From Owenia fusiformis (taxonomy: Eukaryota > Annelida > Polychaeta > Sabellida > Oweniidae): DNA of 64,000 nucleotides. The position numbers were made by a program, and so were the translations under genes. Each line of letters starts with the position of its first letter. Positions within the stretch are counted from its first letter, which is position 1. Positions 3,001-61,663 of this stretch are shown here, in pieces. Location of the stretch: the NCBI GenBank assembly GCA_903813345.2, contig CAIIXF020000005.1:28277375-28341374 (forward strand). The letters are read 5' to 3'. Under the pieces are notes generated by a model. That model did not search any database, was not told the DNA's origin, and saw nothing but the letters and a program-made list of their open reading frames with translations.

Positions 3001-5972
3001 TCTTTAGATGGAGGCTGAAAGATTGGAGAAATATTTCCGCCCTCTGGAGAAGAAGGAGATGTATGAAGAGAAGATGGCGAGTATAAAAGAGATGGTCTGT
3101 GATGTTGTCATATGTGATAAGGTACATATTATATATTTCAAGTATTTTGCCTACAGCCAAAGTCAGATCACAAGCCATAATTGTAATATTCTTTTCCGGA
3201 TTATGTGAAATTTAAAAGTATAGTACCAGGAAATATAAATGTGATAATAGTGTGTGTATCCTTAATTAAATCTACATTGAGTACAGACCATTAAGTAGTC
3301 AACTGCTATCCACACTACCCATATAAGATTTTGAAAAGAGGCTTATTGGTTGAAAATTTTGAAAATGTGTCCCATCTTGAGGAAAAAATCCTAAGGAGAA
3401 CACTGATTACTCTATTCTTCATTCTCAATATAAATGGGAACCCCACAATTTGTTGAATATCAATTTTAATTTCTAAGGAATTAAAATTGACAAAAAAGAA
3501 ATAAAAGTAATTCAACATGCAGATGATACCACCCTCACATTGTCAACTAAAGAATCTATTCGTGAAGCACTTAAAGAAATAAATAATTTTTCTGAAATAT
3601 CTGGACTTAATTTAAATATGGGCAAAATGGAGGGAATATGGTTAGGTAACTTAAAAGGTAATGGACATCAATATGAAAATATTCATTTTGGAGTAGAACC
3701 TGTAAAATGTCTGGGAATATTTATTGGAAATGACAAAACTTTGTGCAAAGAAAAAAACTGGGACAACAAGATCAACAATTTTGAAAAACTCTTTGAATCA
3801 TGGAAAAAAAGAAAACTGACCCTCTTTGGCAAAGCACATGTGATTAACACTCTTGGAATTTCAAAATTAGTATACAATTTAAGTATTCTAGATGTACCCG
3901 ATGATATTGTTAAAAGAATCAATAAAATTATTTACGGTTTTCTATGGAAAAAGGATTGGGTAAAACGAAATACTTTAATTGGAAATATACTTGATGGGGG
4001 GATTAATCTGGTAGACATTCAATGTAAAATTGATGCTTTAAAAGCTGCATGGGCACCTCGTATTAAAACAACAAACACATCGGTTAAAATAATTCCAGAA
4101 TTTATCATAAATAAGCTTGGTTTTACAATAAACGATTTTTACAAAACAAATTTTGACGAAAATGTTAAGATTTTAGATCACTATAAGTTCTACAAACATG
4201 TCTTTTGTGCATACAATAGATGTAAGGAAATAGAGAAAAATAAACTTCCTGGAACAGAAGTTTTATGGCTTAACAAACGGTTTTTATGTAGGAAAGAAAC
4301 TTTGTACATGAAAAATTGGATAAATGCAGGTTTTATTTATGTCAAGGACTTTTTTGACGAGAGAAATAATCTCATTGATGAGAAAACTGTTTTGTTAAGA
4401 TTAAAGAATAAGCAAAATTGGATGACCGAATTTTTAAGAATTAGACTTGTTTTGCACAATATAAAATATGAATGTAAACAAAGTATGAAATATGCTAACA
4501 AAAGGCATTCAAACTCTTTCCTATTTAGAAATGACAAATATGAAAACCTTGAGAAATTAAGTTCAAAGTTCTTTTATAAAATCCTATTGAAAGATAAATT
4601 TATTAGACCAAAGATGGAAGCAGATTGGACAAAATCCTTCAATATTCAGAACGATAGAATCACTTTTAGAAATATATACAAAAACAAGATAAAAGATATT
4701 GAATGCCAAAAGTTATCAGAATTTAATTTTAAACTATTACATAATTTCTTAGCCTGCGGAAAACTGGTAAATAAGTGGAATATGAATGTACCAAAAGAAT
4801 GTAGTGAGTGTAATGTTGTACAAGACATTAGACATTTATTATATGATTGTGTGTTAATTAAAAATCTATGGAATATTCTAAGTGAAACACTAAAGGTGGA
4901 TATTACTTGGAAAAATATACTTCTGGGGTACCAAAGCATGAACAGCAAATTAGAATTTAGAATGTTGCTTTACACAATATTGATGAAATGTATTCATGAA
5001 ATTTGGACAAAAAACTCAGACAATCCAACTCAATATAAACAAGCAAATTTTAAATCGAAAATAGCATCTAAATTAAATATTTATGAACACATTTTTAAAC
5101 TGCAAGGAAAAGTAAATATTGCTCATGATTTTAAGAAAATTATAAATGCCTTTGCTGCTTACTAAGATTGAATGGATTTTATGGACTTTTACTATTGTAT
5201 AAGGATCAAAATTTTGATAGAGTATATAATGCTGTGAAAATCCTATTTTACTATTGTATAAATTCTAATCCAGGATATATGTATATTTCCGTCTGTGCAT
5301 AGTTTTATTGATTTAAGTATTGTTTGTGTTTATGTATTTTGCGTTTATGTTTTTGAATAAATATTTTTATAAAAAAAAAAAAAAAAAAAAAATTTTAATT
5401 TCTAAAATAAACTCTTCTCCACTTCATTCCAGTGTGACTATACAAGCTTTAAAGTGAGTGCAATGTGCAAAGACCTGAACCATGTGGTGAGGCGTACCAA
5501 GGCTAAGAAACGTTTCTTCAAGTGCACCAACTGTAGCAACCACACCTCCTCATTCTTGAGATACCCCAAAGAGGCATGTAGGTGTGGCAGCTCCAAGTAC
5601 ACGAGAGCTTCAATGCTTAAGGTAAGAATTACTACGGGAAGAACATGCTGCTTATATTACTATTATAGGATATATTATAACTATAGTAAATATAGTATTC
5701 TGTGATCTCTCGAACATAACATCAAACTATGTAATGAATATAAGATGATCTCGATGATAAAAAAAATCAAATCACATTGTATAATGAAATGTTCAGTACA
5801 GCTTTATAGAGCTTGTAACCTATCCAGCATAAATCAGTTTCTTAATGTACATTTCTACATTTTCCAGGAGAAGAAAGGTCCTAAGTTGGCGAGTGAGAAG
5901 TTGGTTCTTAGAGGGGAAGAATCAAGCTATCTCAATTCTCTGAATTCTAATGCAGACACTATGAACTTATAG
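1..5972 (+). CDS. mcm10: MCM10 replication initiation factor, C-terminal part (5' partial)
   Basis: Six exons are seen: 1-138, 413-542, 2577-2716, 3008-3121, 5433-5621 and 5868-5972 (TAG stop). All have GT/AG borders and phase is kept throughout; the 5' exons lie outside the window. MCM10 is a DNA-binding scaffold that activates the CMG helicase and recruits DNA polymerase alpha to origins. The family signature is plain: the 'PKLNLSGPPRIGRGLAPG' stretch in exon 1, then basic KRAIAKLQ, PPKKKSRFIGG and LEKYFRPLEKKEMYE segments. These are followed by the C-terminal paired zinc ribbon, with cysteines in VCDVVICDKCDY, AMCKDLNH, FKCTNCSNH and ACRCGS, and ending ERKGPK-like 'EKKGPKLASEKLVLRGEE'. The zinc-ribbon core is split by the intron at 3122-5432, which has received a LINE. 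The last residues (NSNADTMNL) are encoded by a minisatellite unit that continues into the 3' UTR. An ATG track beginning inside exon 4 is not a real start. Confidence 0.95.
622..2339. mobile_element. hAT-like non-autonomous DNA transposon (about 1.7 kb) in an MCM10 intron
   Basis: The element spans 630-2331, flanked by a perfect 8-bp target duplication GTCATTAT (622-629 and 2332-2339). Its terminal inverted repeats start TAGGGGTCACACGGTT on the left and are matched by AACCGTGTGACCCCTA on the right. Subterminal zones are rich in CGGTT/AACCG motifs (640-730 and 2250-2320), as expected of transposase-binding sites. The 8-bp duplication and TAGGGG-type ends are typical of hAT elements. I see no credible transposase ORF. 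Another element is nested at 808-1638. Confidence 0.85.
803..1643. mobile_element. 831-bp foldback (palindromic) element nested in the hAT-like element
   Basis: Positions 808-1638 form two arms of about 400 bp that are near-perfect reverse complements, around a loop of about 15 bases near 1205-1219. Outer ends read CACCCTATGCAGACAGAGCC and its complement. Both flanks carry GTAAT (803-807 and 1639-1643), a 5-bp target duplication. Arms differ by scattered substitutions and a short indel, so the inversion is not brand new. Ends beginning CAC plus a 5-bp duplication recall Transib-type elements, but that is only a suggestion. An 'ORF' at 1341-1559 inside it is not a gene. Confidence 0.8.
3462..5405 (+). 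mobile_element. 5'-truncated L1/Tx1-like LINE with perfect 15-bp target duplication
   Basis: Positions 3477-5390 are inserted between two copies of AATTTTAATTTCTAA (3462-3476 and 5391-5405) and end in a run of 20 or more A after a GAATAAAT poly(A) signal. The open frame runs from the first base of the insert (GIKIDKKEIKVIQHADDTT) to the TAA ending at 5165, so about 560 codons of the ORF2 3' half are intact. It begins at the reverse transcriptase catalytic motif (here HADD, for the usual F/YADD), continues through SGLNLN and the thumb (LGIFIG, FGKAHVINT, FLWKKDW, GGINLVDI), and ends with a C-x2-C...H...C zinc-knuckle-like segment (CSECNVVQDIRHLLYDC). Truncation plus the intact frame and duplication indicate a young insertion, dead on arrival. 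Confidence 0.93.
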
Positions 5973-14200: not shown

Positions 14201-14870
14201 TTTGAAAAGTGGTTTTTGAAGGATTTTTTAATCCAAAAATCATGAATGTATTTATAGCTAAATTTTAGAGGTCACACATATCTTTTAATGATCCATAATT
14301 CATCCAAATACATATATAGCATGTTTCTTTATTGAAAAAATGAAGAAAAATTAGTTGATAAATAAGCAAGGAATAAACTCATCCATGCATGAAAGAGATT
14401 CAGAGAAAAATGCACGATGATTATCACTTTTAAAGTCAGCGAATATAGTAAATGAATTATAAAAACATATTTTCAAATTTTGCATGGGGCCTTTAAAGGC
14501 ACATTTTATCTTATGGCTGAAATATCTCGTTTCAAAAAGTGAAATCCAGCAAGTTACAAAGGCAAAGTGAAATATCTATTTAAAGCTTTTACTCACCAGG
14601 AATAGCAATAACACAGGTATCCACTCCCTGGTGGTATGTGAGGTAGGGTGAGCGACATACACACTTGCACCTATCCCCTGATGTTGGCAATTCTGCCCTA
14701 CGAGCCTGGCAGTAACTGGACATAAAACAAGATGGGGTTTGGAAGGCATCCCCCAAGTACAATTCTCTCTTAATCTCTACAGCATGTGATTGTGAAATCA
14801 TCATTCCTAATAATGTACATATCAGTGTCACCGTGGGATTCCTTTTGGCCATTTTCATCTTCCTTATCAT
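8271..14870 (-). CDS. Type I membrane protein with Cys-rich ectodomain and long acidic tail, unrecognised family
   Basis: Seven exons in transcript order: 14870-14597, 13915-13811, 12365-12223, 11837-11708, 11004-10742, 9970-9920 and 9332-8271. All have GT/AG borders and consistent phases, giving 675 aa. A signal peptide (hydrophobic about residues 13-30) is followed by a Cys cluster (SCFMSSYC, RCKCVC, DTCV, ECQS). Next comes a region with AEC and SCML...EMC cysteines that looks beta-rich, then an acidic/PPKPTTTTTVPPP stalk and one TM helix at about 253-278. The juxtamembrane stretch is YCRYADKKEIEKRM. The tail of about 395 aa is rich in Asp, Glu, Lys and Asn, with EDN repeats, KKRVSF near 334-339 (an RVxF PP1-docking consensus) and a C-terminus ending KSVYW. 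A receptor or adhesion role is inference. The CxCxC ectodomain plus single TM made me think of Drosophila Shavenoid, but I cannot confirm this. Upstream Met codons MIRKM/MKM/MAK are all possible starts. Confidence 0.82.
11045..11400. repeat. Diverged copy of the 20381-20775 MITE family, in an intron
   Basis: It begins AAAAGGCTATTCTCGGTTTGG and shares with 20381-20775 the segments ATAGTCATAATTTAATTTGG, AAATATTAGCGCAGT and CTTGTATTTTATTGAATCGG. The right terminus is lost. Confidence 0.75.
11430..11603. repeat. CAGTAAAACCTG-family MITE copy
   Basis: It starts TACAGTAAAACCTGGG and contains the family's GTGGAACACCTTTAGTACCT and repeated GTGTTCCACTTA/GGTGTTCCA motifs. It is related to 22301-22460, 22477-22621 and 28668-28781. 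The right end is unclear. It lies in an intron of the minus-strand membrane-protein gene. Confidence 0.7.
14107..14496. mobile_element. TTAA-flanked MITE (AGGCCCCAT ends)
   Basis: Positions 14111-14492 have inverted ends AGGCCCCAT/ATGGGGCCT and are flanked by TTAA on both sides (14107-14110 and 14493-14496). TTAA duplication is the mark of piggyBac and Kolobok elements. It lies in the first coding intron of the minus-strand membrane-protein gene. No coding capacity is seen. Confidence 0.75.
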
Positions 14871-17800
14871 AGATGGAACCCAAGTTAATTCCTTTGAGCT
14901 GCCATGAATGGAATGCCAGATTTTCTTGTCTTATCCTTCTTAAAGTATTCTCCCTATTTATACAGTTTTTGATGTTTTTTATCCAATTGACACTTTTATT
15001 AGTTTGGCCTTATTAGTTTCGACAACATGAGTAAGCTTCATATTCAGGTGTTCTAGGCATCTGAAAAAGTGGCTGATGTGTGGCAGCAATCCCTGAAATA
15101 TATTTCAGAATAATTCTTAAACTAAATTATTGCTGCAAAGAATTGTTGTTTTTATTTTAGAAATATTTTTCATTCACGAAAGTAAAAATTGAAGATTATA
15201 ATTATTAGTCAAGTGTATTAGTGTATGATTGTAGAAGTGTTTAGGATGATATATTTAATTCAATAATCCAAGGAATAATTATAGGGTATAAAATAAATTC
15301 ACATTTTACAGTATAGCTGTAGTATACTAAAAACAAAACAATAATGGAAACTGAAGTTCTAATTTTAGTTTCAGGATAATTGAAGTCTGAAGGTATTTTC
15401 TTGTAAACAAACTTAAAAATATTCACTGTATTAGTAATTAACCTTTCTGAATACCATATTCCCTTAAAACATTTTAAGATGCCTTTAAAATGGTTAATAA
15501 ACATTTTATCCTCCGACTGTGTTTTTGAATACAAAGAAAAATCCCTTATAACTTTTTTTAAATTTGCAGAAAATGGAAAACATTACCATGTTTAATTCTC
15601 TACTTAAATGACCCCAAAAAACTGTTATATGACATGCACATATGTATGTATAACTGTATAACTACAAATTAGATGTTTAGTTCTATGACATTTATAGTTT
15701 ACCTATTTTTCATACAAGACACCATCTTTAAATTAATAATCAGGTTATCAATTTTCAAAACATTGAATTGAAACATTAAAATATGTATTCAAGTCAAATA
15801 GATTAATAGGGTGCAATATTTTGACATCAATACTAAACATTTAACAGATATAGTAATTCATTCACAAATCAACAACATCAAAGGTTAGAACTCGACCTGG
15901 CCTTGGGTCGTTCTTATAATCATCCACATTCACTATTTATAGTAAAAGTATTAAGGGTAACATATAATTATTGAGTGTAACACTAATATGTGTTAACCAT
16001 GACCTTTCCTTGTCTTCATATCAAGATTTTCTTAAATGAACTGTATCCAGTTGGTGTCGTACACTTTTACAGTAATAAATTAGACTCATACTTATTTTGA
16101 TAATAAACACAAAATAGGAGCTCTATTAGTGTATGTATACTGACTGTATTAGCAGGAGTTCAGCAAATAAAAAATTCTTATCCATTCAGAAAATGTTTCA
16201 TTTTATTGTTTTAGCACCATATATAGGATTTGACATATAATTGATATCTGTTCTTTACTTATTGAATATGCACAATTTTTTAAAAAACACAGCACAATCC
16301 AATGATCTACAAACCTTATAAAACCAACAAAAATAACAAAAATAACAAAAATAACCTATTGCGAGACATCAATTTCTTATTTGAAAAATATACTTTTAAT
16401 AACATACTTTTAATAAGGTGCTTAAACCCCATATTCACAAACAAAAACATCAAACTACAAAATAAAATAAACAAAACATACAAATCTAAAAAAACAAGCA
16501 AAACATCGCTTACCTGAACTAAGCCTTAATGCAACCATGTAAAACTGAATTAGGATGATTAGCAATGGATTCAGCCAACTGCAACCACGTGTACATGATG
16601 CGTTGATGGCTCACATCCTTCCCAATCACAATTGCTGGCAATTATACCTACAAAACACAACAGGACACTATACCACTGGCAAGCGAGCTCCCTTTTTAAG
16701 ATTCAATGTGAAATGCTATTGACTTGAATTTGAATGACAAGGTTCATGCTTTCGTATGATAGAAATAAGAAAATATAAATAATGATCATTTGTATATGAA
16801 TGACACTAAAATTCGTCAACGAAATGTGTGTGTATTGAAACCTACATGTGTATTTAATATAAATATTGATAAAGTATGCGCAACATATTGACAAGGTTCA
16901 GTTCTGTAAGGGAGAAATTGAAGAGGTTAGCCCAAGTTGCCTATATGTTTTTATATAGATTTATATCCATATCCACTCCTAATCTAAGCTAAAGTCCTTC
17001 AAAAATAATAGATTTCACACGACAATAAATGTTACAGTACATGTATATAGATTGTCACATAACAATGAACACTTGTGATTGATGAATTGTAGCTTTTCTC
17101 ATACCTTTTGCCAAATGTCTCACTTCTGTGTCAAAACTTTATACAAACAAATATGAAACCAATTTCAACATCCATCTTACTATGATTTTGTTTTCTTGGG
17201 TTGCCATACATTTATGTTTTAATGTTTTTTCAAATAATTTTTTAATTTTTTCAAATTTTGAGATTTACTAATGCAAATTAATGTGACATGTAATACTGGG
17301 ATCTTCAAAAAGTCCCCCATTCATAATTCTAAATTTTCTCATTGCCTGCATTTAAGTTTTACTAATATCAATATTTGAATGTGAACATAAGGTTTAAATT
17401 ACAATTACATTGGTTTGTAAATTATTGCTCCAAAACCTGCAATTTTGAATTCAAATATCTCTATTCTCATGAGAAAAAAAGGTTTATATATTCATCAAAA
17501 TATGGGGGTGGGTGTACATAATGGCACATTGTACCTTTTTATTCTTTTCATTGAAATACAGTGTTTTCATGAATAAAACATCTTAAAAATTAGTTTCATG
17601 CTTTCTTACCATTACAAGTTTTTGAATTGCCATATAGGATTTAACACCCCCACTATATTCAGTAAAACATCTTAAAATAGTTGTCCATTCAAACATTATT
17701 TCAGTGTAGTTTGTTTGAATTATTTTGTAGTATTCCTTTATTCCAAATCCTCCAACTGCTATGTTGTACTTATTTTTTGATGTTTTCGTTACACGTTTTG

Positions 17801-30400: not shown

Positions 30401-33224
30401 TGATTACATGAACATCATATGTTTTTCAACAATGTTGATTACATGAACATCATATGTTTTTCAACAATGCTGATTACATGAACATCATATGTTTTTCAAC
30501 AATGCTGATTACATGAACATCATATGTTTTTCAACAATGCTGATTACATGAACATCATATGTTTTTCAACAATGTTGATTACATGAACATCATATGTTAT
30601 TCGACAATATGTGAAGAAGCACTTACACATTTGTAAAAGTAGCTCTCATTTCCTCTATCCTTTTTCTCCTGTATTCTTTGAGGAATTCATCCTCAAATTC
30701 TTCTAAATCTTCCATCTGTTGCATAAAGTCAGCATCTTTTGCCTTTTCCTTTTCATCATCAAGCTGAAAATATTTTATATTGTTATTTATATTGTATAAA
30801 TGGATTTTTATTCCGAATGATGCATATATCTTACTTATCTAACTTATCAGTTACATGTACATACATTTGAACTGACCTGACATCTTTCTACAAAACTACA
30901 TGTGCTACATGTGAGTGGTTTCCGTCATGAGCAAAGCATAGTTAGAAAATTTAGCCCAAAATTATTGTTGTTCAGTTATACTGTTGCAAAATGAAGAGTA
31001 AAATTGTATTAAATGTTTCATGTTAGGCCATTCAATGTTAAATATTCATATATGTTAAATATCCCATCTCTCATTATAATGAGAAAGGTTTTCAGAAAAC
31101 AAATAATTTTTTTGATTGTCTCAATATCCAAAATAACAGGAAATAAAGTGGTCATGGCTTTACCCAGGTTTGGCTCTGAGATTGTACTTATGTACATGAA
31201 CAAAGGCTACACTGTCTTCAAATGTTTAATATGTAAAAAATCATGGATAATAACAAACACGTATTGCTCACAAAATGTGGTGGAAAGTTCGAAAACAAAT
31301 TACAACGACAGAACAAAAAATAACTGACATGAACATAGTTGTCTCTGAATCTGCATATTTATAAACTGGCCAGAACCGGGTGGTTCAAATTATTTCATAT
31401 CTTACATGAGATCTACAGGTAACTGATAGCCTCTTAAGTAGGTCAGCTTTCTCCAGTTCCTGATTTGTCCGTGCCTCATTCTCAAGCTGTTTGTATCTTC
31501 TCCAGTCATTGATCACACCCTTAGGCCCAGTCTGAAATATTGAATACATGTAATGGTATGTACAAATACTGTACAAGGACATGACAGAAGTAGACAACAG
31601 CAATACCAAAGCGTAGCAAATCCCATTGATGTGTGTTGTATTTTTTTTTTTTTTGTTTACCACAAATGAAGGTGAGCAATACCTCTTGGGTATGTCCCGT
31701 ATATATACGGTCGTAATTTACGTAATTAACACGGAAGATAGACCCAGAAACCCCTCCTTGAAGGAGCCCTGTGTTCTTTTATGTGCACTTATACATAGAC
31801 ATACAAGTACACACCACAGCCTTTTGAACGAGTTGCGGACCACTCAGTCAAACACCCTGAAGTACTTCACGCAAACAAGCAAATTTAGTCTTGCCTGAAC
31901 CGGGGATCGAATCCGGGACCTATTGCGTAAGAGGTACCTGCGCTACCTCTGAGCTACACGGTTTGACTTGATAAGCCATGGCTGGCATTTTTACGAACAA
32001 GTATATAGTAAAAATCGTAAAATAACATACATAAAAATTGGCCACCATTTTCAAAATGGTTCCTCACTAGCCAAATTGTCATCAGAAAGTGTAATATGCT
32101 TCTAAGTAGGGACATATAAAATTTCAACAAAATACATGTACCACACACGTACTTGTAAATGGCTGAATCTGCCATTGTCCAAAATAATTTTTTACAATTA
32201 AAACATATTACTGTAAAATCATTAAAATGGCGGCCATTTTTAAACAAAAATGGAATACACTATGCCAAGACAAACAGAAATTACTTTCAACAGACTCAGA
32301 AGTGGTCTTTTGCTCAATAGTCATTTACATGCCCACAATTTACCACAATCAATGATCCCAAATGTCCATAAGGTGCAGCTCAACAAACTACTTCTCATTT
32401 TCTAATCAAATGTCCACTGCTCATAAATGAAAGGGAATTGCTTCTTGCATGACTTGACAAACTGGAATGTTTGCCCGATTTCAGAAATTTAATAATCTCT
32501 AAGAAATCAGATACACTTTTGAATGGGGATACCAACCTTATAGCTTCATGATGTGATGAATGGCAAAATTATTGAAATCGTGGCTCACTATGTCTCAGCA
32601 GCAATCTCAGTATTGAACAGCCAGTGAAACATTCTAAAATGCTTTGGGAACCTTTTGGGTGGGAGGGGGAGCAAGCATAGATACAGACTGAAATACTACT
32701 TGGTTTTTGTATCGTGTAAATTCCATTCCTGTATTATATTTTTAATTTTTACTTTGCCACTAATGTTATTAGGTTAACAAAGGCATACATTTGTATTTAT
32801 ATCAATATCAAGGAAATATAAATAAATTGAAATTGAAAAAAATATAATATATGGAGGTATCAAAAAACAAATGCATTTGGGAAGCCATACTGAATTGGTC
32901 CACTGGTTTTCAAGTTATTGTCAGGATTCACTGGCTGAAAGTTGAGAGGACGGACTGGTGGATGTATAACTTAATATAAACCCTACTATCCTTTGGATAA
33001 CAAGGGCAGTTTAAGACATTGAATACCTGAACTGCTGTGCCTGAATAAGAAGCTGCCCGTGTTGGATTAATCTGAGATTCAGGTACAAAAGTTGGTCCAC
33101 CTCCTCCTCTGACAGCTTCCTTGCCTTCCTGGTTCTCATCATCATCATCCCCTTCATCTTCACTGCTGCTGCAATAATAGTGAGTCTTCTCACCAAGCAA
33201 CTTGTCATCAAGACTCAGTGCCAT
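27428..33224 (-). CDS. pdcl: Phosducin-like protein (PhLP1/PDCL), complete
   Basis: Seven coding exons in transcript order: 33224-33027, 31531-31406, 30763-30627, 29090-28988, 28620-28510, 28132-28008 and 27527-27428. All have GT/AG borders and matched phases, giving 299 aa, close to the usual PhLP1 length of about 300. PhLP1 is a co-chaperone that works with the CCT chaperonin to fold G-protein beta subunits and pass them to gamma. The N-terminus has the acidic CK2-type cluster SSSEDEGDDDDE. Exon 2 carries the hallmark helix GPKGVINDWRRYKQLE that contacts G-beta. Exon 3 is a charged helix (EDLEEFEDEFLKEYRRKRIEEM). Exons 4-6 form the thioredoxin-fold domain (FGKVLSLDANSYVEAID, VTIIVHIYE, PKVKFCKLRA, VKGVPALLIYKNKDIVGSFIGMGQDLG), and the end is acidic (EDSGSDFDVD). 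A splice acceptor just before the ATG (33238) implies a non-coding first exon upstream. Confidence 0.96.
27596..27790. mobile_element. CAGGCCCGTAGCCAG-family MITE, right end degraded
   Basis: It starts CAGGCCCGTAACCAGGGGGG and carries the family's TGGCCAAAAATTCTTTCAAA and TTTTGGACCAAAATTGTCAA segments. The right terminus no longer matches. It lies in the last PDCL intron. Confidence 0.75.
28666..28783. mobile_element. 114-bp CAGTAAAACC-family MITE with TA duplication
   Basis: Positions 28668-28781, ends CAGTGAAATCTG/CAGGTTTTACCG, flanked by TA on each side. It lies in a PDCL intron. Confidence 0.7.
29998..30110. repeat. Solo mariner-type terminal sequence
   Basis: TACAGGGTGTCCAATAAAG followed by CTTTCTCAATATTG and GATGAAATTTTCAGAGTTTG resembles the terminal repeat of the element at 59221. 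No matching opposite end is nearby. It lies in a PDCL intron. Confidence 0.4.
30287..30601. repeat. 35-bp minisatellite, 9 copies, in a PDCL intron
   Basis: The unit is CAACAATGYTGATTACATGA followed by ACATCATATGTTTTT. Copies begin at 30287, 30322, 30357, 30392, 30427, 30462, 30497, 30532 and 30567. The variable base (AATGTTG or AATGCTG) runs T C T C T C C C T. Otherwise the copies are identical until the last. The array ends 26 bp before coding exon 3 (30627-30763). Confidence 0.96.
31641..31982 (-). mobile_element. tRNA-derived SINE in a PDCL intron
   Basis: Read on the minus strand, a tRNA-like head (about 31970-31893) has an A box TAGCTCAGAGGTAG and a B box GGATTCGATCC. A body of about 210 bp follows, then a 14-bp poly(A) (T-run 31641-31654 on +). 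The head does not fold as a proper tRNA because the T-stem is mismatched, so it is a SINE promoter. Broadly similar 'meta'-type SINEs are known from molluscs; I cannot assign the family. Confidence 0.8.
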
Positions 33225-42466: not shown

Positions 42467-42974
42467 TAGGTGGAGTCATTTCATGACAGTTTGGAGCATT
42501 TAGATATCGGCTTGTTATATTCTCCTTATTAAAGGACACGATTATTTCAATCCAAGTGCTCTATTTGAAAACCAGGAAATCAATGACTTTCTGAGGAGTG
42601 TACTTATAGCATGTGTTTTGATACAGGAGAATGTCTGCTAAAATAACATATCAAAAATGTCTCATTGATGTATTGTAGTATCTTCAAAATTCACCATATT
42701 TTCTATGACCGCCTTCATCTTTCATCGGGGTGTAATTGCTCCATGTGCGAGGAATGAGGTTGTATTACTGTATGTAGACAATTAATCTCAGCTTGATAGC
42801 TTACAACGTCTCATATGTCTCTGAGCTTATTAGTATTTATTACACAAGATATACTTTTTCATTTCAGATACAACACAGATTTGGAGTCTAAGTATACACA
42901 CATACATGTGTGGAATCATTGCGCTATTCATGGACTTCATTTAATGAAATGATCGTCATTATGAATTTTGGGAA

Positions 42975-45900
42975 ATGAGCAGTCTTAACATGACCTCGGA
43001 TTTTGATCCCGGGTCGGTTCATTACGGAATTGTGCCTCTAGGAGCTGGAAATAGCACAGGCGGACTTCATGTTATACATATTGATGAAAAGATCCAAGGA
43101 AATGTGACTCTGCCTAGCTCATCAGGGGTGACCCCTATATATGGTGCAACCACCACCACCGAGACACCAGTGAAGAACATATTGCCTTATGTGTTTATAC
43201 CACTTGGGGCTCTTTTATTTATAGCTATCCTGTCTTTCTTGGTAAGTGACGTTTAAAAACTATCATCAATTTCCCTTACATCAAGGACATATTATCTGAT
43301 ATTATTTGTTCGTTTTTCTCAACATTGCTCATAATGCATTCATTGTGTCACTGCGTCATTTTTATTAGATATTTTCAAATTGGTTCTATATACTAGTACA
43401 TTATTTTATGTTCTATTATTATTAAATTATATATATCCATCATGTAATTGATCGACATTTATATGACTTGATCAGTGATGATAGTGTGTTACTAATTGTA
43501 CTAATTTAATGAATTTAATGTAGCAGCTGTTTTCCTAGTACAAAAGAAGTTTTATGGTTTGGAGTAGTTAAAATGTAACTTGCAATTTTAAGAATCAAAA
43601 AATGTATATTATTTGAAAAACTTTACTCAAAATCCAATTGTCCGAATATTTCCCTAAGATAATTTGATATATAGTAAAGTATTTTTTAGGTTTTATGTCT
43701 TTTAACCAGCAAACATAAGAATCTAACTCTGTTTTATTATTTTTCAGATCATCTTTATATTGAAGAAAACCAGGTAAGATGAATATAAACTTTTCATCAA
43801 ACATTAAAGATGTAGACCAACTTTGCGTTTGTTTAAAGCTGTCAGAGGTCAACCAATCAGTTTTATGTCACCACCATAAGTGGTGGTGGTTGTTGTTCGG
43901 CATTTGGTGTTGATAACAAATGGCAGGTGGTGATATTTTGCATGTTAATGCCTAAAATGTTAAAAATATGGCTGTTCAGTTGATGAAAATCAACATTTAA
44001 AGCGGCTCTAAGGTCTGTGGAGAGAAAAATGGAGAAATTTTACCTTTTCTGAGCTATCGGGGTGAAGTTTGGTCCAACATCTTCTTCCTTATTCCTATTT
44101 TATAAAAATGTATGCATATGGCAATATTCATCAACCAGTAGAACTGGCAAATCGTTTAGAATCTACAATTCCATACAAGGAGTCCCACTCATAGATTTTT
44201 CAAATTCTTTCCAAGTCGACGTCGAAACACCTAGCGGGTGAAATTGAAACTAATTTTTCTGGCTGCTCGAATCGATAAAATCTCTGATAGTGTGAGTCTT
44301 TTTATGAAATCTTTCTGATAGAAAACACTTAATTAATATTATAAAGCATTAAATCGTGAATCCGAAGCGTAATCTGAAATAAAAGTGAAAAAACATTGCG
44401 CGGACGTCAGAGAAAAACTTCCGGTTTAATAAAAAATGGCGGACGTCGAAGGAGAAATTATGACGAAGAATTAGAGGATTTTCCTTTGCCATTATCGATC
44501 GTTATAAGGTATGTGCACAAATTCTAGTAGCATACATGGAAAATAGATACATTTTTAAAGGCAACAACATATTCAAAGCTTTCATTTTACGATAGGCCCA
44601 GGATCATTGGATACGACTCGGCAATCGATACTCCCACTTTAAAGATGAATTCTTTCTCCAAACAAATGATTTCATTATTCCTTTGGACATAATCCCTTAG
44701 AATTGGTCTGCATCTTTAAGAATTTCTTGGAAACAAGTAATGTAATTTTAAGTATCATCTGTTACCTAGGCAACATCTATAACAGGAAGTAAAAGACTCA
44801 ATGAGAGTCATTATACCTTGAGTACCACGTTTCCTCATCTTCAATTAGCCGAGCGCTCAATATAACAATGGGGCTGTTATCCACTTCTGTTTTATTTTTA
44901 TGTATGTGCTTTTAAAATAGTAACCAGGCCTGTAGCCAGGGGGTGGGGGGTTCGCAGGGTTCGGACGAACCCTCCCCTGGCCAAAAATTCTTTCAAAACC
45001 ATGCAGTTTTTCACCATTTTGAAGCACTTCTCAAGTGATTTTTGGGCCAAAATTGTCAAATGTGATTCGCCCCTGGAATTTTTGAAAACTGAACCCCCCC
45101 TTGGCAAATCCTAGCTACGGGCCTGGTAACACCCTAAACTTAAATTAAGCTTCTACATGTTTAGGTGTGAGTTCTACAGCATAAAATAATGCACTAACAT
45201 GAGTTAGTGGAGGGTTAACTTCCAGTTGAGGTGCCTTCAGATACTTGCCACATCTTTCTGTTTGCATTTGTTTGACTTAGCTTCTTAAAAGATAGCTTCA
45301 TCTGCAATCTTTAAGTTAAAGATGAAACCTGAATTCTCTGAGCACACCAGAGCTTGACATCACCAGAGGATCGATTTTTTAAAAATGGTCATTTCCTATG
45401 ACATTGATTGATTTATGATCCGGACTTTGATGGCTATACTGGCAGTGGGGTTGGGCTGTTGAACTGTAAAATTGTCTAAACTATTCAGAGGTTGTAGTTT
45501 AGAATTAAACTCATTTGGGTCAGAAGACCCATTTAGATGAAACAAAGCATGAGATGAAAGAACTCAAAAATTATTGGATTTTTAGATCCTCCAGATAATC
45601 TCATACATTATATCTTAGTATCGTAGAAAAGTCAAGACATGGTTTTTATCTGATAGTCGAGTTGTATTATTGAGATATGAAGCCTTTCATCAATGTATAT
45701 TGTTTATGGAAATGTATGCAAAGAAAAAAATAAGGCCTACAGGACAGGACACTCACATCTGATAAATTACAAAATAGGTAGGGTACATTCTGATACTCAT
45801 AGCATCTCTCTCTGTTGCATCGCAGAAGGATAGAGATAGAGAGGGCTTGGCTATGGCTAGGGTAGAGAGTATGTAAAATTCTTTTGATCTTGTCCCAGAA

Positions 45901-54804: not shown

Positions 54805-57800
54805 ATGACAGAAATGCAATACATTGATACAGAGTTGCCATCTAAGGCTGTGGACAACACAACTTCTTTGATGATTGAAAATGAATACGCAGAGATCGGC
54901 AACTATATAACAGACAATGAAAACAACATAATCAAAGAGGTGTTGAGATACCCAAAAAAAAGATGTCCGATTATGTTGAAAGTGATTGCAGGAATCATGG
55001 GTTTTATTTTGGTGGTTGGTACTACTATTGGAGTAGTTCTCACTGTAAGCAGAGATTCAAGTGAGCAATAATACTGTATTTGTTTTATATGTCTCTGATA
55101 TACACAATTATTTTTCAGATCTTTGGATCACTAATTTTATTTAATTAAGAGGCAACAAAGAAGAGATTGGTTGATGGTAGCTGTTTCAATGTTTGTTCTC
55201 TGACATGCAAACCTTTTCAAATACAATGCAAAAAAGAGTTTTGACTTTTTTGTTGAAAATTCTTGTTTCACTTGCAGAAGCATGGCTTTCTAAAAAATTC
55301 GAAATATTTGATCTGATAGCTAAAATAATTTTACAAATATTACCTGAGAGTGTAAAGCGACACATTGACATGTTTATTCAAAATACTGGTTTCATTTTAC
55401 AATATCTATCCTTACTATCTCTACTTTCTATTCATTCATAAACAACATTATATAAATCACTTTATGATGTAATTCTAACCACAAGAATTTAATCTATCAC
55501 AATATAAGTCTTATCTAATATTTTATTATTTTAGACATATTGCAATTTAGATGTTCTGGTTTATATCTAATTACCTCTTTATCTAATGCATGAGGTGGAT
55601 AGTACATGCTGTGGTTCCCGCAATGCAAGTGGGATAAAAATAGCAGAAATGTTACATGAAAAATACACCGTTGTGTAAAAATATGGGATATGGAAAACTT
55701 TGCAAATAATCAAAATTTTTAACCATTACAAGAATAAATAGATATATTTCTCTAAAAGGAAGCTAAAATGATTTCTTTTCCAGGAAACTTAAATCTAAAG
55801 AGTAAAAAAATACAAAAATAATTAAGGTATTTCAATTTATCTTAACAGATTAATTCCTGGGAGTTCAAAAATATTGTTAACGGCAATAATGTTTTGCTCA
55901 TCTGTGAAAAAATGTTCAATTCATCTGAATTTTAGAACTGTTTTAGAGATGTTGTAGCATCAGGAATAAAAGGAATATTTTTTCAAATTAGTTTCATGCT
56001 AACTTTATACAATTCATATTTTTAATTTGAAAATACTATTGTATTTTGTTCTAAAGAACATTTAATTGTGCCCAATAATATTATTATTATATTATGTAAA
56101 ACATAAATGAAATAACAAACGAAAAAGTGTTTATAATAATGTTTCTCCAGGTGATGTCACACTTAGGGTTCCACCTGAAAATGAAACATTGACACCTAAA
56201 ACTGGGACACCTAAAACATTGGCACTACTAGCTGAAAACACAACAAAATCAACTGTCATTAAATCTACCACCTCATTCTCTCCAGCTTGGAACAAACCTC
56301 TTGAAAGTAAACATCTTGGTATCCCACAAAAGACACCGACTTTCCAAGAGGCCATCATTGTATCATCACGACCATCAGGTTCTGTTGCGCCAGCTGCAAA
56401 TTCCATTCTACCAGCAATGTCCTCAACTTCTCCTGCAACCTGCAACTGTGACAGTAAGTCATCATACATTTCTTATGAATTAAACACTGTAACTTACATT
56501 GGCTCCTATTCTATTTAGATATATATTTTATTTATTTATCATTTATTTCATAACATAATTATAAAATATGCTATATGCTATAAAACAGTAAATAAACAGT
56601 AAAGGTGGTATTATAAGTTCATACAATGGTTCATTCTGATAACCTTTAGCTTATACTCTTGTATTTGATGTCTTTATAAGAGAAGTCACTTGAAAATAAA
56701 CACATGAAACACAAAACAAACACTTTTATATAACTCACTCAGACATCAATACAGAGTGAATTTCTCTATTTCATGTCTGACAACTCAAAAAATTGTTGGT
56801 TTTCTCCAGTTGATCATTTTGATTTGCATATCACCCATAAGTCTTCATTGCAACTATTACTTTTTAATTTTATCAATACTTATAATTACTAGTAACATGG
56901 CCAATAATACATTGCCTTGGCCCTATGTTCAAAATGAAGTGATGTTAAAGAAAATATAGAAACCTACATGTATTATATGACCTTATATAATATAACTTTG
57001 TCATTAATTATATACTTGACTTGTTATCTATACATGTAACTCATTGTAATTTGATAGTTGACTTATACCAATATACTGTAAGTTGCTTTAATTGGCCCTA
57101 TTTAATTGGCGGATTGGGCAAATTTGGAAATTTTGGCTGCTATTTAATTTGGCGGATTAACCGATTAACCGATTGGTAAAATGTGAATATTAGAGGGCTC
57201 TTACAAAGATGGAAACAATGCTCTCGTTTTTCAAAAGAATAACCAGCAGTGGATCTAGATCTTCGAAAATAGTTCAATATTGACATTTTAATGGGGTAAT
57301 TTCAAATGTTTTTATCCCACAAGGGATTCCAGGGGATTTATTCAAAAAATTGGTGGACACTTTATTTGCTGGTTGTCATCAATCAGCCAAATCCGCCAAA
57401 TTAAAACAGCCGTCAAATTAAAGCAACTTACAGTATTGGTTTATAATTTGTGTAAATAACTCAAGGGCCATTCAATAATTCAGACTACCCCTGCCTTATC
57501 AAGAATAAAAAGCTGAAAAACAGGTGCAATCTCTTCAAATGATTATGTTCAATGTTCAGGTTCATACCTCAAAATGAAACAGAGCATTGGAGTAGTATAA
57601 TGCAATGCAATTATATAAAATACTATGTTCTGATTGGCTGAAATTGGACAGACCTACCTAGTTATGTATATGTTATCTTTTAATGCCCTGTTAATAGTTT
57701 TCAACACAATAGTTTTATAAAACAATCATAATTGAACAGCAAGTGGGCGATAACAATAAATCACTCCTACAGAAGCTCATAACAAGAAAACACCAATCAT

Positions 57801-60800
57801 ACTACTTGTTAAAATGCACGTTTCATATTGCTTGCCTTTGGTTATTATTTTTAGTGAAACTGAAAAATCATATTCGCAAAATGATTCAAATCCTGCTTAA
57901 TTAACATGATTGATGAAAACACAGAATGAAATCCTGTGCTAAGGGCTGATGTGAAAAAGTCAGTCCACCCCACAGGGAATCAAACCCACGATAAGTGAAA
58001 CTGAAAAATTATATTCAGAAAATGATCTTAATCATGCTTAAATATACAAGTGATGAACTTTTTATTGGACTATATACATTTATTAACAATTTGGGAATTT
58101 TTTGAATGATTTGACCCACAAGTGTTTGGAACTTTTCCAAATTATGTATGTACAATGTCTGAGGTTAAGTGTCTTGTATATCAACATGATAAGAATAAAT
58201 GCTCAATTCAGACTGTGTAAAACAAATTAAAAATTCATAAATAACAAAACCAAAGCAAAAAAAGTTATATTTCCATTTGTGATGAAACACTTTGGGCTAT
58301 CTAAACATTGCCACCAAAGCAAGTCACAAGAGTTCAAGCTGAAGTAATCTAACCGTGGAGAGTTTTACTTCACACAAAGTGACCAAATCAAATAATAATT
58401 GCATCAATCTTAGAAGGGTTTGTGAAAAGTAAATTGGTATTGTGTAAAACGTGAGGAATACATTAGTTTTGTTTTGTTTTTATTCATTTGGCACAAGGTC
58501 ACAATCGCAAGTTTACGAAGTATATAAATATAATGGAGCAGTTCGAAAAGGTTGAATTATTCAAATTCCTGTGAATAAAAACATGCTTTTAAATTATGGT
58601 CATGTTTGTTTGTTTCGTTAAAAATTCAAGTCCATTGCATACTTAACGTCTTGAGTCCCAGGCTCTAAATTGGCATGAAACCAGAGAATTTTTCATTTTT
58701 TGCCACCTTTTGACATTTTACTACATACCTATACAATTTTAGATGCTCAATTTAGTAAAATTAAATTGCAGAGATTATTTTTACACCTTTTAAAACAATT
58801 TTTGTGTAAATTGGATGAAAATTGTTCAAATGAGAGCAATTTTTGTGAAAAAATTTGTGACAGATTTTCTCGTCCCTCTGGGTTTCAAGGTCATTTCTGA
58901 GGTGACGAGAAATCTCGTCATTCTGGGTAGTCAAGAGGTTAAGTAAAAATTGAAGTCCATTGCATACTTAAGGACAAGGAAAAATTGAAGTCCATTGCAT
59001 ACTTTAGGACAAGGAACATACATGCTTTGCATATTCGGAAATACTTTTTCTACACATGCTTTTTATATTTTCTGCATTTCTGCCTTATTTGCCATAACTT
59101 CTATCCATTTTTGTTTTTCTTATACTGCCCTTTGTGATTTTTTAAAATCGATTGTACATATCTGAGACTACCATAAAACAAAAAGACTGAGAGTAACATT
59201 TATGATGGTCCTAGTATATATCAGGTGTCCCAAAAAAATTGAGCCACTTTTTGACAAGCATTATCTCAGCAACTGATGAACCAAACTCACTGAAAATTTG
59301 TAAAAAGTAGCCCAGGAGTATTGGTAGCAAGGTATAAAAATATGAAAAAGATCAAGTAAATATTATGTGAGAACTAAGAAATTCAAGATAGCATGTCATA
59401 ATAGCCCATACCGGAGCAATGCAATGTGAACCTTACAGCATTTCTACCCAAAAAATGAGAAGCAATTTGACAAGTAATTTCTCAGCAATAGATGAGCCAA
59501 ATTCTTCGAGAACTTTACCTTAGGCACTTTAGGTTATCCTCTGCTAGTGCCATGAATATGTAAGAGATTGGTCTCATAGCATGTGTGTATTTTAGAATTA
59601 AAGACAGTATGTCAAAATAACCAATATCAATGTAAAACTCACTTATTAATCCATTTCCAAGTAAAAATACTTTTCCGCATTTTTTCTTACAATATCACCT
59701 CCAATGAATTTGAGAATGAATTGGATTTTGGATATTTGGGATGAATGAAAAGAATTAATCAGATATCACTCGGCTCCCATCAAACACAATGAAGACTGAG
59801 CGTGCGAAGACGATAGCTGGTAGAAACATTTTTGAAGTCTCATATCAGAGCTCCGGTATGGGAATTTTTGACATGCTGTTTTGAATTTCTTAGAACTCAC
59901 AGAATATTTACTTGATCTTTTTTATATTTTAACAACTTGCTAAAGATACTCTTAGACTACTTTGTACAAATTTGGATCATCAGTTGCTGAGATAATACTT
60001 GTCAAAAAGTGGCTCATTTTTTTGGGACACCTGATATATACAATAAAAAATTGAAATTGATATGAAATCCATTTTAGGTTATGAGAGTTTGAGACGCGAT
60101 GTCATAAAAATAATTGCTTCCAATGCTGAATCCTGTGAATACATCCGGATAAGGTTAAACCAAAAGTACAAGGAACCATGGCAATGCTTTAGTGGTACAT
60201 CTGAAGAATTTGGTTACTCTATCACTTATGACAATAACCATTTTGTCAGGTACCAGATGGGTGCCTTGGAGTATATTGTTTTCCGGACAAGATACATAAG
60301 AAGTAAGTATAGGCTAGTAGCACATACACATACTGTCTTGAAATTAAGCAAGCTCATTCCATGGCTATTTCATTGAATGTGGTCATGTTCTGTTTATACA
60401 CATTGAGTTTGTTTTCCCTTGACATACTCATATAACTCAATAGACATCTATAACAAAATAAATAAATAAAAACGCTTGTATAAAATGTTCTTTGATTTAC
60501 AAAACGAAACATTCCTCTAGTTAGACACATTGAAACCCACTGCAAATAATTATCTTTTAACACATTTCATAGGGTCACAGACGGATAGAAATGCCACGTC
60601 TGCCTCAACACCATGTTGTATTGGTACAGGTAGGTAACTTAATGCAGTACCACACTTGTTCCACTGTGTGAATTAAAATTATCCATCAAATGATATATAT
60701 ATTTGTTTTGTTAGTATGAGTACATATATATATGCAGGCCTGTCAACTGTCCCGCAATTTGCGTATTTGTCACGCATTTGCTGAAGAATTTGAAGTCACG

Positions 60801-61663
60801 CCAGTTATTTTTGCGTGACAGAAAATGTCACGCAAATACGCATTTTACCTGGTAAATGTCAAGCAAAAATATTTCAGTAGAAAAATTTCTAAAAAAGATC
60901 GTCTACACAGCAAAAATACGAACGTCGGAAAAAAATGTACGCATTTCGTTCGGACTTTTCACGCGAATTGCGTATATGTCACGCATTCTGTTCGAAATTT
61001 TTCGTACCTACCCCCCGAAAAATTTGAGGTGTTCAAAATTTGGCAAGATGTAATAAAATTTAAACCAAGGTGTTCAAAATTTAGATCAAGGTGTCCAGAT
61101 TTGGACCAAGGTGTCCACATTTTGAGGGGAGGTGTTCAACATTTCCAAGTCACTCATGTTAGGTGTTCCCAAGTTGACAGGCCTGTATATGTGAATCTAT
61201 TCACAACTGAACATCTGAAAATAAAGTTTTCCAATGAATGGTTAAGGGCAATATTAAATTATTTGTAAAATATTTCACATACACCATAATTATATAATTG
61301 ATAACAACCTTAAAAGATATTTCAGATAATGCAATTCACACACCCAATACCACTGGCAGTTATGAAGCTCTTCAAAATGCACCAGACACTACAAATATCC
61401 ACAAGGTTTACCCGCCCGATCATCATATGGAACAGTATGTCCGCCAGTTGGCCAAAGAAGCACTGGCTAAATACAGAGACCTTTTTGAAGTCGCCAAATA
61501 CATCAGAGAACATTTTGATGAAATACATAAACCACCTTGGCAGTGTTTTGTACATGAAGGTGCCTATACACCAACTATGGATGGAACTCCATACATTCAT
61601 CTAAGTGTGGGACATATGCACATTGCACTTTTTAAAACTTATTGGATTGGTGATGATGATTGA
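54805..61663 (+). CDS. Predicted type II membrane protein with two LC8 (dynein light chain)-like domains
   Basis: Five exons: 54805-55060, 56151-56453, 60078-60302, 60573-60629 and 61326-61663 (TGA). All GT/AG, every intron phase 1, giving 392 aa. Residues 1-56 are polar, ending in basic YPKKRCP; a TM helix lies at about 57-81. Residues 87-186 are a Thr/Ser/Pro-rich stalk with N-glycosylation sequons (NET, NTT) and a CNC pair. The first LC8-like domain (about 188-261) is in exon 3: DVIKII...YIRIRLNQKYKEPWQCF...HFVRYQMGALEYIVFRT. Exon 4 and the start of exon 5 are a linker (RSQTDRNATSASTPCC...). The second domain (about 315-387) has LAKEALAKY, VAKYIREHFDEIHKPPWQCF and IHLSVGHMHIALFKT. Both match the family pattern of helix, (K)xxPxWxC(V/F), then strand GxxxIxLFK. 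Canonical LC8 is about 90 aa, soluble and dimeric. Basic residues before the TM predict N-inside, C-outside. A role is unknown. Confidence 0.9.
57074..57435. mobile_element. MITE with TACTGTAAGTTGC ends, in an intron
   Basis: The left end TACTGTAAGTTGCTTTAATT is matched by AATTAAAGCAACTTACAGTA on the right. Internal motifs TTTAATTTGGCGGATT and AATCCGCCAAATTAAA are also inverted. It is related in sequence to the palindrome at 53530. Confidence 0.75.
58643..58942. mobile_element. TTAA-flanked MITE (CGTCTTGAGTCCCAG ends)
   Basis: Positions 58647-58938, ends CGTCTTGAGTCCCAGG/CTGGGTAGTCAAGAGG, flanked by TTAA. The internal hairpin is TGACGAGAAATCTCGTCA. The flanking host segment AAGTCCATTGCATACTTA is itself repeated at about 58628, 58951 and 58988. 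A truncated relative is at 20018. It lies in an intron of the LC8-like gene. Confidence 0.78.
59219..60036. mobile_element. 814-bp Tc1/mariner-like MITE with about 200-bp TIRs
   Basis: Positions 59221-60034 are flanked by TA. Ends TCAGGTGTCCCAAAAAAA... are inverted for about 200 bp (TTGAGCCACTTTTTGACAAG, ATCTCAGCAACTGATGA, GATCAAGTAAATATT). No transposase frame. It ends 43 bp before exon 3 of the LC8-like gene, close to the splice acceptor. Confidence 0.85.
60735..61185. mobile_element. 451-bp MITE with CAGGCCTGTCAACT ends
   Basis: The left end CAGGCCTGTCAACT is matched by AGTTGACAGGCCTG. Flanks TATATG are shared (8 bp with mismatches: TATATATG/TATATGTG). The interior has GCGTATTTGTCACGCATT motifs and a short tandem AGGTGTTCAAAATTTGG/AGGTGTCCA repeat (61028-61160). 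The 147-aa ORF at 60825-61268 is within the element and not a gene. Confidence 0.8.

Follow-up and report, generated by a model that had tools for sequence, protein, structure and literature searches.

A gene on the forward strand of the window (the whole stretch of Owenia fusiformis DNA analysed here, 64,000 nucleotides long) probably encodes a type II protein that crosses the membrane once. Its ectodomain would be made of LC8 folds in a non-dynein pair, lie on the outer or luminal face of the membrane and engage a non-classical partner. We refer to this protein-coding gene (54805-61663, plus strand) as gene A and to a second gene, found on the minus strand of contig C6 of the same genome, as gene B. 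The order originally predicted for gene A, with a transmembrane (TM) helix followed by a stalk and two LC8 domains, is supported by its sequence, and is strengthened by the presence of the same plan in gene B.

Inside the cell LC8 serves as a highly conserved hub. If the reading given above is true, a hub that works by strand pairing can leave the cytosol as a paired ectodomain and be re-targeted, and gene A would offer a naturally occurring heterotypic LC8 pair on one chain, whose pairing and binding could be separated by mutation. The fold family itself is known. The membrane-anchored tandem architecture was not encountered among the literature matches listed, whose titles and opening abstract lines mention no tandem extracellular LC8 protein and in which the nearest relatives are the trematode tegumental allergen-like (TAL) proteins. 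In passages of PMC5372573, trematode tegumental proteins are described as combining one or two EF-hands with a single light chain domain, and one of them, CsTegu20.6, as predicted to be cytoplasmic, without a signal peptide or TM domain. Like the gene A product, the TAL/CaBP proteins are larger, non-dynein proteins that end in a dynein light chain domain, and the light-chain-like domain of FhCaBP2 is among the structural matches of the gene A models. Gene A differs from them, however, in having one helix, two light chain domains and no EF-hand match (none is found among the Pfam matches of A, B or their N-terminal parts).

Exon structure and shared plan of genes A and B

The five exons of gene A (Table 1) splice cleanly into the predicted frame of 392 amino acids, across introns that calculate from the coordinates as 1090, 3624, 270 and 696 bases long, all four of them GT-AG and in phase 1. 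A basic KKR cluster lies directly before the TM helix, as had been noted at the outset, and the helix itself is the single standout hydrophobic segment, with a mean hydropathy of 2.44 compared with 0.82 for the next best segment anywhere in the protein. The Thr/Ser/Pro stalk is likewise borne out by composition, with Ser and Thr making up 29% and Pro 12% of residues 84-186. Exon 2, which encodes it, has a best other match in the genome of E 0.81.

Table 1 Coordinates of genes A and B (gene A in window positions, gene B in positions of contig C6)
Feature	Position	Strand	Content
Gene A exon 1	54805-55060	+	Polar acidic N-terminal tail, basic KKR, TM helix; residues 1-85 and part of 86
Gene A best 19-residue TM segment	54982-55038	+	Residues 60-78, hydropathy 2.44; bases counted from exon start
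Gene A exon 2	56151-56453	+	Thr/Ser/Pro-rich stalk, CNCD at end
Gene A exon 3	60078-60302	+	LC8-like domain 1; PF01221 match 60125-60289
Gene A exon 4	60573-60629	+	Short linker exon with CC
Gene A exon 5	61326-61663	+	Linker, LC8-like domain 2 and stop codon; PF01221 match 61421-61639
Gene B exons 1 to 5	28272025-28271497, 28270955-28270896, 28270704-28270456, 28270089-28270021, 28269643-28269333	-	All introns phase 1

Gene B came to light as two matches to PF01221 about 1 kb apart on contig C6, a different chromosome from that of gene A. Its five exons splice into 405 amino acids that comprise a long acidic tail, the basic sequence VKKKK, one helix (hydropathy 2.86), a short exon encoding NCECC, and LC8 domains 1 and 2 separated by another short exon, which contains three cysteines. 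Splicing of intron 1 requires a GC donor, without which a stop codon follows the helix, and the stalk is about 22 residues long compared with 103 in gene A. The order, exon count and phases are nevertheless the same in both genes.

How far does this resemblance reflect common ancestry? The domain 1s of A and B are 44% identical and the domain 2s 33%, compared with 26% (A) and 21% (B) for domain 1 against domain 2 within one gene. In the tree the two domain 1s form a clade with support of 98/95, and they score 165 in alignment with each other against 89 and 63 with LC8. The domain 2s form no resolved grouping and score 114 with each other, slightly above their 105 and 101 with LC8; they may share descent as second domains. 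The simplest reading, suggested by domain 1 similarity together with exon order and phases, is that the tandem predates the split between the two genes; the domain 2s alone would not show this, and the GC donor required by intron 1 of gene B is a further weakness. Third codon positions differ between A and B in 53% and 58% of codons, compared with 38 to 51% at the other positions, which at this divergence is a weak sign of constraint.

The cytoplasmic tails align no better than shuffled sequences, 194 of 1000 of which reach their score, and the alignment of the helix regions is weak, with 7 of 1000 shuffles reaching it. Searching the genome with the first exon of either gene, at E up to 10, did not bring up that of the other among the matches listed. 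Homology of the first exons was rejected on these shuffles and searches, and what supports the shared plan is therefore position, phase and the LC8 exons. Exon 4 also shows no alignment above chance (877 of 1000 shuffles score as high); its counterpart in gene B, too, is bounded by phase 1 on both sides and carries cysteines near its end.

The position of the anchor exons was examined by scanning 93,601 bases (the window together with loci L001, L002, L003 and L005) for open reading frames (ORFs) with a strong hydrophobic segment and for type II features among these, according to criteria set after gene A was known. Five such ORFs were found, two of which meet the type II criteria; these two are the first exons of genes A and B, directly upstream of the tandem LC8 exons. 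Ten control stretches of 10 kb elsewhere in the genome yielded two ORFs with a hydrophobic segment, neither of which meets those criteria. Judged on these counts, the presence of an anchor exon upstream of tandem LC8 exons is more than chance.

Fold and client groove of the LC8-like domains

Membership of the dynein light chain type 1 family (PF01221), for which the curated Pfam cut-off is 29.1 bits, was assessed domain by domain. The whole gene A protein matches PF01221 twice (4.7e-23 overall), and the exons that encode the two domains do so individually, exon 3 with 42.9 bits (6.5e-11) and exon 5 with 45.6 bits (9.4e-12), in agreement with the claim that both are LC8-like. The domains of gene B score 42.9 and 40.3 bits, again above the cut-off, and sequence searches of solved structures returned dynein light chains among the matches for both gene A domains. 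Of the signature noted at the outset for both domains, PWQCF...G-x3-I-x-(L/V)F(K/R), the part from G-x3 onwards is exact in domain 2 only; domain 1 reads G-x3-Y-I-V-F-R. In domain 1 of gene A, moreover, the alignment with PF01221 starts only at profile position 34, and the region of the first helix is seven residues shorter than in gene B. A partial match to PF03007 (19.1 and 21.6 bits) falls below the cut-off of 23.6 for that family and was taken as chance.

Structures were predicted for each gene A domain separately, with the other domain as sole companion sequence. The domain 2 model (mean pLDDT 62.2, pTM 0.59) has human DYNLL2 as its top Foldseek match (E 3.0e-6) and superposes on fly LC8 over 86 residues with a VIA Z score of 12.2 and an rmsd of 2.4. 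The domain 1 model (mean pLDDT 59.4, pTM 0.52) has as its top Foldseek match a Leishmania doublet microtubule chain that is listed without a name (E 1.1e-4); yeast Dyn2 (4.0e-4) and DYNLL2 (4.5e-4) follow closely. The VIA match of this model to 6zyw_H (LC8_1b), over 67 residues with an rmsd of 2.5, has a Z score of 8.0, near the background of the tool, and most structures in the next ranks are dynein light chains. Both domains are predicted to have the LC8 fold, with modest confidence in the models. The β3 strand is absent from both models, as in the LC8 monomer; passages of PMC12017986 describe LC8 as a dimer of ~10 kDa monomers that pair between chains and work inside the cell, with β3 of the monomer unstructured until it meets β2 of the partner.

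Set against LC8/DYNLL itself, the gene A domains pass the PF01221 cut-off, show the predicted helix-helix-strand order, have LC8 structures leading their fold matches, and keep the W and C of PTWHC as well as the final G...F(K/R). LC8, however, is a soluble protein of one domain and about 89 residues, whereas gene A encodes 392 residues with one strong hydrophobic helix and two diverged domains, and the client groove is different. Of 18 client-site residues, taken from passages of PMC11750543, domains 1 and 2 keep five and two in gene A and five and one in gene B; in the same genome, the count is 18 for a near-canonical LC8 (LC8b), eight for a diverged one (LC8c) and seven for a PF01221 protein encoded on contig C9. 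His55 is replaced by Gln, Ser88 by Thr and Lys43 by Arg in all four domains of A and B. With the client-groove residues mostly lost, classical TQT-type binding is unlikely, as are TQT-type clients as ligands, and the loss agrees with co-option for another ligand. We infer an adhesion or ligand-binding role, and would hypothesise that the proteins act as receptors or adhesins. Short motifs resembling LC8 anchors occur in the linker of A (SQT at residue 263) and in B (IQS at 189 and VQT at 215), in places that differ between the two proteins, and were taken as chance.

Losses elsewhere in the fold are distributed unevenly. Over 58 other LC8 positions, the domain 2s keep 21 and 20 residues and the domain 1s 11 and 7, but the FG that opens β3 is kept in the domain 1s and lost in the domain 2s of both genes. 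Since the domain 2s keep the rest of LC8 better but lose FG, and the domain 1s show the reverse, domains 1 and 2 may be specialised halves of one asymmetric pair.

Membrane orientation, mechanism and rival readings

Both proteins show the hallmarks of type II topology in hydropathy and charge: one internal helix, positive charge on its N-terminal side and no second helix. The 14 residues before the helix include five Lys or Arg and no Asp or Glu in A and in B alike, and the 15 residues after it have a net charge of 0 in A and +3 in B. In both proteins this distribution of charge favours an N-terminus in the cytosol, with the LC8 domains in a lumen or outside the cell. Symmetric phase-1 exons, such as those found here, are usual for extracellular modules. 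Six of the seven cysteines that follow the helix in gene A (183, 185, 206, 223, 276 and 354) fall in columns with gene B cysteines, compared with an overall identity of 100 in 292 aligned residues; of these, each LC8 domain supplies one that belongs to the PWxC motif of the family, and column 276 lies in exon 4, where the alignment is insecure. The outside or luminal placement originally proposed from the KKR cluster is thus favoured by charge, exon phases and shared cysteines, though not proven by them.

N-glycosylation sequons number five in gene A, one of them in the N-terminal tail, and seven in gene B, three of them in the tail; since each gene has them on either side of its helix, they were rejected as a test of topology. 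The motif EYxxI occurs in both tails, as YAEI at residue 28 in A, 32 residues ahead of the best helix segment, and as YQQI at 126 in B, 24 residues ahead of it. It could be a sorting or phosphotyrosine motif, and is only suggestive since the whole tails do not align.

From these features a mechanism can be sketched. A short acidic tail would lie in the cytosol, the single helix would span the membrane, and on the outer or luminal side the stalk would bear both LC8-fold domains. Domains 1 and 2 may complete each other, within one chain or between neighbouring chains, because β3 of an LC8 monomer stays unpaired until a partner supplies the sheet. The paired surface would bind an extracellular or luminal partner rather than a classical TQT client, and the cysteines flanking the domains are probably disulfide-bonded. 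Genes A and B might on this basis form a small cell-surface family in which the LC8 fold works outside the cytosol: type II receptors or adhesins would have a covalent, asymmetric, disulfide-braced pair as ectodomain and capture extended strands of extracellular partners by β-augmentation, with new specificity. We put this fuller picture forward tentatively, as possible but short of probable.

Two variants keep the domains on the same face of the membrane. Type II topology is common among residents of the Golgi, ER or endosome lumen, and the gene A product could be such a resident rather than a surface receptor, which we consider unlikely. A somewhat unlikely alternative to the intramolecular pseudo-dimer is a strand swap between neighbouring molecules that would produce homophilic clusters or adhesion. 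The interdomain linker of about 55 residues leaves either mode open and LC8 normally dimerises between chains (in passages of PMC12017986), but the two domains of one gene are very different and FG is found in domain 1 only, in both genes, which suits a fixed heterotypic pair.

Other readings dispense with the ectodomain altogether. The LC8-like pair might face the cytosol, tethering dynein or LC8 clients to the membrane, as could be argued from the fact that LC8 works inside the cell (passages of PMC12017986), from the sequons in the N-terminal tails and from the presence of the PWQC cysteine in soluble LC8 as well. The basic cluster N-terminal of the helix in both genes, the Ser/Thr/Pro stalk that follows the gene A helix, the retention between A and B of cysteines outside the LC8 core and the loss of most client-groove residues all speak against such an inverted arrangement, which we regard as very doubtful. 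We find it just as improbable that the TM exon is part of a different product, with exons 3 to 5 expressed from an internal promoter as a soluble tandem LC8-like protein. The exon 3 frame of gene A does run upstream to an in-frame Met within the intron, and the two TM exons show hardly any likeness; against this, no such Met is found upstream in the exon 3 frame of gene B, the TM-first order with phase-1 joins recurs at two loci, and by the type II criteria used above there is no further anchor-type ORF in the 193.6 kb examined.

Other PF01221 genes and features of the window

Across the genome (498 Mb, with 12 large contigs) PF01221 has nine matches, eight of them above the cut-off, and two of the nine belong to gene A. 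Domain 1 of A, domain 1 of B and domain 2 of A were each searched against the genome; among the best candidates, which alone are scored, the matches listed at E < 0.5 come solely from gene A, gene B and the LC8-type ORFs of contig C12. The latter are two ORFs about 5 kb apart (locus L005, C12:27795800-27801400), one near-canonical and the other keeping 8 of the 18 client-site residues. A third PF01221 group, on contig C9, consists of two exons, the first of which scores below the cut-off, and belongs to a gene that we take to be DNAL4. Its product shares the PF01221 family with genes A and B but is 34-38% identical to two canonical-type LC8s and 14-26% identical to the A and B domains, and no ORF with a strong hydrophobic segment is listed in the 8 kb around its first exon (locus L003). 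A collection of viral contigs, in which animal genes are not expected, gave 131 pattern matches, none of them confirmed. Beside gene B, on the opposite strand, two open frames (L001, 1474-3049, plus strand) match queuine tRNA-ribosyltransferase.

Inverted sequences occur in the introns of gene A. In intron 2, an element at 59219-60036 resembles a non-autonomous DNA transposon in its long inverted arms and its inverted termini, which match perfectly over 21 bases (TATCAGGTGTCCCAAAAAAAT); it ends about 40 bases before exon 3. At 57073-57439 in the same intron, ACTGTAAGTTGCTTTAATT and a nearly complementary copy were seen by eye to form another inverted pair. A second element, in intron 4 (60735-61185), has inverted CAGGCCTGTCAACT termini, although at least two matches were also obtained in 3 of 100 shuffles. 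Elsewhere in the window, a 562-residue open frame at 3477-5162 (plus strand), whose partial matches to reverse transcriptase and zf-RVT fall short of the cut-offs, is probably a retrotransposon remnant. The minus strand carries a match, above the cut-off, to the Shavenoid isoform B N-terminal domain at 14592-14930 and a Phosducin exon (8.5e-15) at 31388-31717. An open frame on the plus strand at 42948-43253, which has no Pfam match, encodes a Thr-rich stretch with one hydrophobic helix at its end and is perhaps an exon of another membrane protein.
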